A stretch of DNA of 33,188 nt from a virus. The notes beneath the pieces are model-generated. The model did not search any database. It was not told the origin of the DNA and saw only the letters and a list, made by a program, of their open reading frames with translations. The stretch's first letter is position 1, and every line of letters starts with the position of its first letter. The stretch is from positions 1-33,188 of the IMG/VR virus record IMGVR_UViG_3300029826_000015; one strand, written 5' to 3'. Made by a program: the position numbers and the translations under genes. Below, one piece after another: positions 4,508 to 32,739 of this stretch.

Positions 4508-4551
4508 AAGCGTAAGCGACATTAAAACAATCACTTACGCTTTGTTATACT
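4508..4551 (+). terminator. Hairpin, weak terminator or promoter region
   Basis: AAGCGTAAG (4508-4516) pairs perfectly with CTTACGCTT (4534-4542) around a 17-base loop. Only a short, interrupted T stretch follows (TTTGTTAT), so termination would be weak. TATACT (4546-4551), with TTAAAA 18 bp upstream, could alternatively be a weak promoter for the helicase-loader gene. Between this hairpin and 4633 lies a further small GGTGA/TCACC hairpin (4583-4597). Confidence 0.4.
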
Positions 4552-7448: not shown

Positions 7449-7460
7449 TACGAATGTGAT

Positions 7461-7566
7461 CAAAATAAAAGAAATATTCTTTTCATTTTGTACTTCCTTT
7501 TTGTTGCCAGCTTAACTAGGTTTAGGCTGGTTATATAAAGTAAGTAGATTTTCCTGAAACAAATCT
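7461..7566 (+). ncRNA. Tandem hairpins in the gap before the late genes
   Basis: Three hairpins precede a terminator. The first is 7461-7490 (13 bp, one bulged C, loop ATA). The second is 7507-7530 (CCAGCTTAA/TTAGGCTGG, 9 bp with one G-U). The third is 7546-7566 (AGATTT/AAATCT). The gap between genes (7449-7659) holds no credible reading frame. The stems could be the 3' end of the early transcript, a small RNA, or protein-binding sites. No known RNA family was recognised. Confidence 0.5.
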
Positions 7567-7573
7567 TCTATGA

Positions 7574-7601
7574 GCAGGGCAGCAAACGCCTTGCTTTTTT
7601 T
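7574..7601 (+). terminator. Rho-independent terminator ending the replication block
   Basis: GCAGGGC (7574-7580) pairs with GCCTTGC (7588-7594, one G-U) around loop AGCAAAC, followed at once by T7 (7595-7601). This is a strong textbook terminator between the replication genes and the late operon. Confidence 0.85.
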
Positions 7602-7602
7602 A

Positions 7603-7631
7603 TTGCAAAAATGCTAAAAATATGATATATA
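7603..7631 (+). promoter_or_regulatory. Promoter for the packaging/head operon
   Basis: TTGCAA (7603-7608), a 17 bp spacer and TATATA (7626-7631) lie straight after the terminator and 29 bases before the first late gene. The spacing is ideal and each box matches consensus at 4-5 of 6 positions, so this probably starts late transcription with host sigma-70. Confidence 0.6.
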
Positions 7632-7659
7632 TAGATATGAAAGAAAAAAGGATTAGGAA

Positions 7660-27034: not shown

Positions 27035-27043
27035 ATATATATA

Positions 27044-27511
27044 GAAAGACAAAAGGAGAACAAAATGACAACAACATTAAGAGTAATTAAGGATTTAAGA
27101 GGAAATGAAGAAAAGTATTTTATAGTAAGAGAAGAAAATATCGAATGCGGTAATTATTCCGACACTTATGACAATTATGGAAACCAAGTAAGTTTAGAAA
27201 ATGAAGACGACGACTATGCTGCTAATTTTATATCTTGGTGGACTGGGAATAATTGGGAAAGTTATATATTAGAAAGTGACATTGATTACAGGGATGGAGA
27301 GTTACTAGATCAAGAAGACAAAGTGAGCATAAGCATCCTAGCGGCTTATGAACAATATGACCATTATATTGAAAGTGGAGATGGAAAAACAGAAGAAATA
27401 GACGGTTGGGAAATAAGTAGTTGCTTGTATCCAACAATGGAATTAGCAGTTGTGAACAAGGTGTAATATATAGAGAAAGACAAAAGGAGAACAAAATGAC
27501 AACAACATTAA
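27044..27511 (+). repeat. 37-bp direct repeat of leader and gene start
   Basis: Thirty-seven identical bases at 27044-27080 and 27475-27511 cover AAAGACAAAAGGAG, the ATG and the first six codons (MTTTL and the next base pairs) of the two adjacent genes. The repeat ends in the coding part where the proteins diverge at residue 6. This is a second case of a copied RBS/start cassette in this genome. Confidence 0.85.
27065..27466 (+). CDS. Hypothetical acidic early protein, 133 aa
   Basis: First gene behind a strong promoter. Strongly acidic, with a tryptophan-rich stretch (ISWWTGNNWESYILESDIDY, residues about 56-75) and DGWEISSCLYPTMELAV at the end. No membrane span or known domain. Acidic early proteins often mimic DNA or inhibit host enzymes, but that cannot be claimed here. 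The leader is copied before the next gene. Confidence 0.75.
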   Translation: MTTTLRVIKDLRGNEEKYFIVREENIECGNYSDTYDNYGNQVSLENEDDDYAANFISWWTGNNWESYILESDIDYRDGELLDQEDKVSISILAAYEQYDHYIESGDGKTEEIDGWEISSCLYPTMELAVVNKV

Positions 27512-28122
27512 CAGGTAAAACAAAATCAGGATTCAAAGTTACAACAGAAATTTATAACGACGAGGGGGGTATAACACTATTGGATAAAGACATCGAAATA
27601 GGATATTCAAATGGTAGTTACGGTTTAAGAATGAGTGTAGCAAAGTTTAGAGCTTACAATGACGCAGATTCATTGAAAAAAATAAAAGAAGCAGGATTAA
27701 AAGAAACTGACTACATAATGCTTAAATTAGTTGAAAATATACAAGACATTAGAGATGAATTTGTAGAAAGCTATTTATCAGAAAGAAGACAAACTAAAAT
27801 CGACGAACTAAATAAAAACAATGAATTTCAGAATATTAGATTTTCAAAAGTATATAGAGATGGAAAAGGAGATGAATTAGAAATTGGACAGCATATATAT
27901 ATCGATGAATTTCATTTTGTAGTAAGAAATATTTTTGACTTCGGTACTATTATTAACAAACATAACAAGTCAGGGTTTTATACAACAAAATATGATGATG
28001 AAGGAATAAATAGAATTCATTTTAATGATGGCGAAAAAGACATTGAAATCTCTGATAGAGAAATAAGAGCTTTTTTAATAGCGAATAATTTAAACGATGT
28101 TACAGATAACATAAGAATGTAA
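27496..28122 (+). CDS. Hypothetical early protein, 208 aa
   Basis: ATG 27496 is chosen over an upstream non-ATG opening since it carries the duplicated AAAAGGAG leader and shares MTTTL with the previous gene. The protein has a beta-rich N-terminal part (GFKVTTEIYNDEGGITLLDKD) and a second, similar region after residue 120 (EIGQHIYIDEFHFVVRNIF). No family is recognised. It lies in the operon before the Cas4-like nuclease. Confidence 0.72.
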   Translation: MTTTLTGKTKSGFKVTTEIYNDEGGITLLDKDIEIGYSNGSYGLRMSVAKFRAYNDADSLKKIKEAGLKETDYIMLKLVENIQDIRDEFVESYLSERRQTKIDELNKNNEFQNIRFSKVYRDGKGDELEIGQHIYIDEFHFVVRNIFDFGTIINKHNKSGFYTTKYDDEGINRIHFNDGEKDIEISDREIRAFLIANNLNDVTDNIRM

Positions 28123-30390: not shown

Positions 30391-30391
30391 A

Positions 30392-30778
30392 ATGATAGGA
30401 TTAAAAGTTTATGGGATTGGAAGAGTTTGCAAAAGTCCAGAAATAAAGGATTTAGGTAATAATAAAAAAGTTGCAACCGTTGTAGTAGTTTATAACGAAA
30501 AATACAACGAAAAGGAAACAAGTCACTTTTTTGAGTGCGTAGGATTCGGCAAACTAGCAGACATTATACAAAAATACGTAATGAAGGGTGACAAAATAGG
30601 AATTATAGGTGACCTAAAAGAGGATAAATGGGAAACAAAAGACGGTAAAACAGGCAGAAAAGCACGAATATACCTTAATAGTGTAGAACTTTTAGGACAG
30701 AAAAAAAACAACGACGAAATACAAAGTTCAGATTTTTATAGTGATGGAGATAATGAGATTGAAAAAAGTTATTTTTAG
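30392..30778 (+). CDS. ssb: Single-stranded DNA-binding protein
   Basis: ATG 30392 is chosen (GGAGAGG at 30379-30385); the frame is open slightly upstream without an ATG. 128 residues with the OB-fold SSB pattern: GIGRVCKSPEIK, NKKVATVVVVYNEKYN, THFF-like SHFFECVGFGKLADII, and MKGDKIGIIGDLKEDKWETKDGK, then ARIYLNSVELL. The acidic end (FYSDGDNEIEKSYF) stands in for the usual DDDIPF tail that recruits partners. It protects single strands during replication and recombination. Confidence 0.93.
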   Translation: MIGLKVYGIGRVCKSPEIKDLGNNKKVATVVVVYNEKYNEKETSHFFECVGFGKLADIIQKYVMKGDKIGIIGDLKEDKWETKDGKTGRKARIYLNSVELLGQKKNNDEIQSSDFYSDGDNEIEKSYF

Positions 30779-30786
30779 TTTATAAT
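30759..30786 (+). promoter_or_regulatory. Promoter for the structured leader RNA
   Basis: TTGAAA (30759-30764), 16 bp, TATAAT (30781-30786), overlapping the end of ssb. Transcription would start near 30792, exactly where the folded leader begins. Confidence 0.65.
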
Positions 30787-30789
30787 TAA

Positions 30790-30915
30790 AGAAGGATAAA
30801 GCTATGTTATAACAAGGCAAGGCAAAGCGCAAGGGTGAAACTGTTGAGAGCAGTTTGAAAGTGGTAGTAACTTTCCTTTGCCGAATCCTTTTGCAAAAAC
30901 ATAAAAGGATACAAT
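30790..30915 (+). ncRNA. Riboswitch-like leader: three-way junction with SD-sequestering switch
   Basis: A closing stem P1, GGCAAAG (30821-30827) with CTTTGCC (30876-30882), encloses P2 AAACTG/CAGTTT (30838-30856, loop TTGAGAG) and P3 GAAAGT/ACTTTC (30857-30875, loop GGTAGTA). There are no bases between P2, P3 and P1, and a 10-base joining segment CGCAAGGGTG before P2. Outside, ATCCTTTT (30885-30892) can pair either with AAGGAT near the RNA start (30792-30797, extendable) or with AAAAGGAT (30903-30910), the ribosome binding site of the next gene. Only one can form at a time, so the element could switch translation. A tiny ATG-TTA-TAA frame (30804-30812) follows the first AAGGAT. No known family recognised. 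Confidence 0.6.
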
Positions 30916-31083
30916 ATGGGAAATTTACGACAACTAAAACAAACCAAAAATGAAGAAATCAACAAATTGTTAATGAATTATGAATTTAAAATCAGGCAAC
31001 CTGAAAAATTTGAACAAAAATTAGATCAAAAATTGCAAGAGCTAGCAGTTATAGAAGAAAAAATTGAAAGGGATAAAAAATGA
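30916..31083 (+). CDS. Small coiled-coil-like protein, 55 aa, under the structured leader
   Basis: ATG 30916, 5 bases after the AAGGAT SD that the leader can mask. It is charged and helical throughout (NEEINKLLMNYEFKIRQPEKF, then DQKLQELAVIEEKIERDKK). It overlaps the next membrane gene by 4 bp. No family known. Whatever the leader senses should control this and coupled genes. Confidence 0.65.
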   Translation: MGNLRQLKQTKNEEINKLLMNYEFKIRQPEKFEQKLDQKLQELAVIEEKIERDKK

Positions 31084-32672: not shown

Positions 32673-32739
32673 TACAATCGTCATAGATTATTAACCGAGT
32701 ACGATTGTACGAAGTTAATATCTATGCACTAATACATAG
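32673..32739 (+). promoter_or_regulatory. Interleaved inverted repeats in the antirepressor leader
   Basis: A: TACAATCGT (32673-32681) with ACGATTGTA (32701-32709), 9 bp. B: CATAGAT-TATTAAC (32682-32695) with GTTAATA-TCTATG (32714-32726), 13 bp with one bulged T. The order A-B-A'-B' makes the two stems overlap, and no base separates A from B, so both cannot form together as a normal pseudoknot. CTATG (32722-32726) can also pair with CATAG (32735-32739). This looks like an RNA switch or overlapping operators; the antirepressor SD follows at 32750-32755. Confidence 0.65.

Follow-up and report, generated by a model that had tools for sequence, protein, structure and literature searches.

To our knowledge, few phage-encoded switches are known. 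Purine riboswitches are built on a three-way junction with two 7-nt loops, and their joints J2/3 and J3/1 carry much of the binding core. Among phage RNAs, alternative structures of the lambda cIII mRNA set its translation initiation rate (Altuvia et al. 1989, as cited in PMC11182007), RNA thermometers are known in phages (PMC11182007), and the lambda bar minigene has the two-codon layout ATG-ATA-TAA (PMC8012679). In this work, we describe the 5' leader of a small phage gene, which, on folding predictions, we tentatively read as a translational leader that sequesters the SD sequence and is fed by an internal promoter, probably a leader of an already known kind.

The window (i.e., the whole analyzed stretch of DNA, 33,188 bases of an IMG/VR virus record) has a G+C content of 30.7%, and all of its plausible genes are located on the + strand. 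The leader lies in the 137-nt gap between ssb (30391..30778, + strand), encoding a single-strand DNA-binding protein (Pfam SSB PF00436, 2.6e-21), and a 54-aa gene (30916..31080, + strand), an ORF with the SD AAAAGGAT placed below the hairpin described further on; the median intergenic gap, calculated from our own gene list, is 9.5 nt. The product of the 30916 gene gave no Pfam or PHROG match and has no relative in IMG/VR. No terminator was found between ssb and the 30916 gene, so ssb transcripts probably read through into the latter. Judged by all of the collections searched, the phage is an orphan: its best phage terminase match is 51% identical, and among species genomes the best terminase matches are 36-51% identical, with the highest of these values reached over partial matches.

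A sigma-70-type promoter TTGAAA-N16-TATAAT had been proposed by the first-pass annotation, and it was indeed found at 30759..30786 (+ strand), where it overlaps the 3' end of ssb and shares 11 of 12 bases with the consensus (TTGAAA at 30759-30764, 16 nt, and TATAAT at 30781-30786). Four near-consensus promoters are present on the + strand of the window (7422, 11847, 30759, and 32462), and shuffled sequence gives 2.25 equally good ones per + strand (sd 1.8), thus such a match is not rare. In all four cases, the -10 element falls inside a gene gap or borders on one, and gaps longer than 60 nt constitute only about 6% of the window; as the gene gaps are A+T-rich, which favours promoter-like matches, this localization gives moderate support only. 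Judging from its sequence, the 30759-30786 element probably works as a promoter.

The best-supported functional element of the leader, as modelled, is the SD hairpin (30885..30910, + strand; -7.7 kcal/mol alone), in which ATCCTTTT (30885-30892) pairs with AAAAGGAT (30903-30910), the SD of the 30916 gene. Reading of the sequence bore out the full complementarity previously reported for these two strands (a perfect 8 bp). The pair probability of the hairpin is 0.86-0.99, with about 0.95 in each context tested (RNA start at 30792, RNA start at 30785, or read-through from ssb), and the SD is about 94-99% paired in all tested RNAs, as predicted effector-free. A perfect SD complement of at least 8 nt within 35 nt upstream was found in 0.4% of the 2,390 SD-bearing ORFs gathered from about 170 other loci, and in this phage in 1 of 43 SD-bearing genes; at the 0.4% rate, the chance of one 8-bp anti-SD hairpin among 43 genes is about 1 in 6. 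The SD is thus placed in a stable local hairpin, as in SD-sequestering translational leaders, which indicates what the leader would work like and is distinct from membership; no riboswitch family fits.

Upstream of the SD hairpin there is a folded core (30821..30882, + strand; MFE -21.3 kcal/mol). It comprises P1 (30821-30827 with 30876-30882, 7 bp), an optional 3-bp hairpin (30828-30837), P2 (30838-30843 with 30851-30856, 6 bp and a 7-nt loop; element 30838-30856), and P3 (30857-30862 with 30870-30875, 6 bp and a 7-nt loop; element 30857-30875), with zero bases in the P2/P3 and P3/P1 joints. The helix lengths, both loops, and the two empty joints agree with the three-way junction drawn earlier, but its three-way form does not hold in the MFE, where the 10-nt third joint is closed as a 3-bp hairpin (30828-30830 with 30835-30837), which results in a four-way cloverleaf. 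The MFE of the core alone (z -2.9) is matched by 0.7% of 1,000 shuffles, and that of the leader 30792-30915 by 0.45% of 2,000 dinucleotide shuffles (p 0.0045); the RNA 30792-30935 has an MFE of -32.7 kcal/mol. Three similar units (GGCAAGG, GGCAAAG, and CGCAAGG) include the 5' strand of P1, and the first of them can also pair with the P1 3' strand (about 5% probability). In context, the pair probabilities are about 0.6 for P1, 0.99 for P2, and 0.64 for P3; P1 and P3 are formed to only about 60%, since the start of the coding sequence offers another partner for the 3' part of P3/P1. A tRNA or tRNA-like cloverleaf was considered for the core and rejected, as neither ARAGORN nor Rfam tRNA models (E up to 10) gave a match, and the loop GGTAGTA lacks TTC.

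The pairing with the coding sequence forms an alternative start-codon clamp (30860..30935, + strand), in which 30860-30877 pairs with 30918-30935, i.e., with codons 1-7 of the 30916 gene (duplex -12.6 kcal/mol). The clamp encloses the SD hairpin and excludes P1 and P3. Its total energy is -32.3 kcal/mol versus -32.7 kcal/mol for the junction form (0.4 apart), and the SD is hidden in both. This rival fold, missed by the first-pass annotation and found by us post hoc, by looking, is better balanced than the helix at the 5' end of the RNA that is discussed below. The duplex energy was equalled in 18 of 2,000 shuffles and in none of the 56 other gene starts.

In the reading that we tentatively favour, i.e., an SD-sequestering leader, a second promoter inside the gap behind ssb would fire and start a structured 5' leader, whose stable hairpin would bury the SD and keep translation of the 30916 gene low, until something acting during infection, e.g., an RNA-binding protein or a ribosome, would open it. 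Within the leader, the upstream core would most likely serve for stabilisation or protein binding, and it could also restrict formation of the nearly isoenergetic clamp. Against this reading, the searches gave no homologue and hence no sign of selection on any of the pairs, a single such SD hairpin could have arisen by chance, P1 and P3 are only partly formed in context, and comparable folds are present elsewhere in the phage.

The main rival reading, which we consider somewhat less likely, is that of an ordinary spacer, that is, a promoter and a gap that happens to fold, with a junction and a hairpin that regulate nothing. In itself, the junction is not uncommon: shuffles gave multiloops of similar size in 1.6% of cases, and among real 124-nt + strand windows the share was 2.5%. 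Nor is strong structure peculiar to the leader, since several other + strand stretches of the phage (2636, 7472, and others), some of them inside genes, fold equally or more strongly. An SD hairpin like this one is expected once per about 240 genes, and the feature was picked post hoc by the first-pass annotation. Against the spacer stands the coincidence, in a single gap, of the promoter, a fold with p 0.0045, and the 8-bp anti-SD hairpin.

A ligand- or protein-sensing switch, whose cloverleaf would bind an effector and pick the junction or the clamp (or the 5' helix), seems unlikely to us. The compactness of its junction (one 10-nt joint, two 7-nt loops) and the mutual exclusion of junction and clamp at 0.4 kcal/mol apart would suit such a mechanism, but the SD is hidden in the junction and clamp forms alike, and the clamp, recognised only post hoc, involves coding sequence. 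Any switch of this kind would rest on the competition between junction and clamp, not on the pair of helices proposed earlier. The stronger version, according to which the leader is the first known member of a phage translational-switch class, with an effector-bound cloverleaf choosing between junction and clamp around a hidden SD, is less probable still, and a new riboswitch class in general is possible but unsupported.

The searches for relatives also argue against a sensing switch, as they gave no Rfam match, no second copy in the window, and no relative in the collections searched. The leader matches no Rfam family at the gathering or at a relaxed threshold, in agreement with the earlier statement that no known riboswitch class is recognised; at the gathering score there was no match anywhere in the window, and at E up to 10 the only match was to sucC, well short of the threshold and not located in the leader. 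BLAST of the DNA against phages and plasmids gave chance matches only, and DNA patterns (joint and loops) were found neither in viral contigs nor in 85,000 species genomes. When used as protein baits, the products of the 30916 gene, ssb, and the 31527 gene gave no relative, the terminase gave distant relatives only, and the 29893 product recovered seven contigs (36-57% identity), all without the leader. A single-sequence covariance model found only itself in the window. Among 67 phage loci nothing exceeded 16 bits, and no match came from additional samples with Clostridium, Allofustis (Bacilli), Selenomonas, Cloacimonadota, and others at their centre; altogether, the covariance search covered about 1,270 genomes (two samples overlapped), and this absence of matches is weak evidence, because a one-sequence model finds close relatives only. 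A partial 22-bit match in a Clostridia bin, without P3 and with broken P1 pairs, was taken as chance.

The mechanism put forward in the first-pass annotation, in which ATCCTTTT shuttles between the 5' end of the RNA and the SD in two mutually exclusive 8-bp helices, triggered by a ribosome on the frame ATG-TTA-TAA, is very improbable in the light of the folding predictions. The elements themselves can be read directly: AAGGAT (30792-30797), an SD sequence, is followed by ATG-TTA-TAA (30804-30812), as had been claimed (30792..30812, + strand). The 5' strand does pair with ATCCTTTT, but only over 6 bp in an RNA starting at 30792; 8 bp (including one G-U) are obtained only if the RNA contains 30790-30791. 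When both states were folded, the SD-hairpin form was favoured and the 5'-helix form was minor (-32.7 versus -28.3 kcal/mol for the RNA 30792-30935, and -32.7 versus -31.2 kcal/mol for the start at 30785). Forcing of the 5' helix costs 4.4 kcal/mol (start 30792), 3.3 kcal/mol (read-through RNA), or 1.5 kcal/mol (start 30785), and its equilibrium probability is 0.001-0.05. In the growing chain, the 5' helix reaches 0.59 at the end 30892, stays at about 58% to 30900 and near 0.5 until 30904, and falls to 0.00 at 30910, displaced once the SD is transcribed. Thus, as modelled, the 5' AAGGAT helix would be at most a brief folding intermediate. Moreover, an equally good partner is common by chance, as 35% of random 96-nt + strand windows offer an anti-SD partner of at least 6 bp and 5% one of at least 8 bp (including G-U), and the helix is near-trivial because one anti-SD strand meets two SD sequences. 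A ribosome on the mini-frame, simulated by holding bases 30785-30820 single-stranded, leaves the SD hairpin about 0.99 formed, nearly the same as without it, so it would barely alter SD access. No two comparably stable states that differ in SD access were found in these effector-free predictions, and the translational switch between two 8-bp helices is not supported, its 5' helix being minor, lost after SD transcription, and near chance.

The frame after ATG-TTA-TAA stays open for 46 codons. We rejected a coding reading of the gap, since this frame has no relative among phages, and 15% of the shuffled versions of this gap contain open runs of at least 35 codons.

An RNA thermometer is more improbable yet. 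A hairpin-held SD with a U-rich arm would suit one, and phage thermometers are known (PMC11182007), but the reading fails because the predicted melting is too slight (the unpaired SD share is 0.06, 0.08, and 0.18 at 37, 42, and 60 C, respectively), and the anti-SD pairs are Watson-Crick, unlike the fourU pattern. Least credible of all is a toxic minigene of the lambda bar or CreT type, made up of an SD, ATG, a single codon, and a stop, which would sequester a tRNA: the SD-ATG-TTA-TAA layout resembles the ATG-ATA-TAA of lambda bar (PMC8012679), but the codon after the start is not a rare, hungry one, as TTA is the commonest Leu codon in the usage of the phage itself (39% of Leu codons), on which the reading fails, and SD-ATG-x-stop frames occur on the + strand at chance frequency (2 distinct versus 2.4 expected).

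Several other structured or repeated elements were noted outside the leader. The strongest + strand fold (MFE -40.7 kcal/mol) is a long, very stable hairpin at 2655-2750 with a T-run behind it. Slightly upstream, AACAACATA (2655-2663) is complementary to its apical loop TTTTATGTTGTTGA; an apical-loop pseudoknot with an intrinsic terminator is possible there. This hairpin precedes a 19-codon frame, the RBS and start of which (AAAAGGAGCTTAGCATGATA) recur at 2946-2973. A near-perfect inverted repeat AAGCGTAAGCGAC...TCACTTACGCTT (4508-4542) is located inside a 345-nt gap, and the gap before the terminase genes (7449-7659) has a near-consensus promoter at its edge and contains strong hairpins and a terminator-like stem with a T-run (about 7572-7600). 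At 27035-27083 and 27466-27514, a 49-nt repeat (96%) spans the RBS and start of two neighbouring genes, which is a sign of duplication or exchange. A helix-turn-helix-like gene (32761) is preceded by a gap with the interleaved inverted repeats TACAATCG/CGATTGTA and CATAGATTATTAA/TTAATATCTATG (32673-32726), which could be either a double operator or an H-type pseudoknot. The 29893 gene is shared (57% identity) with a distant phage contig, in which the gap before the next gene likewise contains a long inverted repeat, ATTCCCGCACAAGCATTTGAGG...CCTCAAATGCTTATGTGGGAAT (L166:820-995); it has no sequence relation to the 30916 leader.

If the SD hairpin works as we propose, it would be one more phage case in which a hidden ribosome-binding site determines how strongly a small early gene is expressed, here within an operon that carries a promoter of its own as well. 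A switch that truly senses an effector would be of far greater importance, but the present evidence falls short of it.

With the purine riboswitch, the leader shares a P1 of about 7 bp and two 6-bp hairpins with 7-nt loops, but it has no Rfam match, and its joints J2/3 and J3/1 are empty. In lambda cIII, near-equal rival folds are reportedly present, one of them extending into the coding sequence. The leader described here likewise has near-equal rival folds, one of which enters the coding sequence, but both of them keep its SD paired, and no sequence relation is expected. Lambda bar minigenes and CreT (PMC8012679, PMC8501985) have a similar order of an SD and a two-codon frame, which here uses the common codon TTA, occurs at chance frequency, and lies inside the leader of another gene. 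It is the SD-sequestering translational leaders that the 30916 leader resembles in having its SD fully paired in a hairpin just upstream of the start codon, and it differs from them in the additional folded core that is present upstream.
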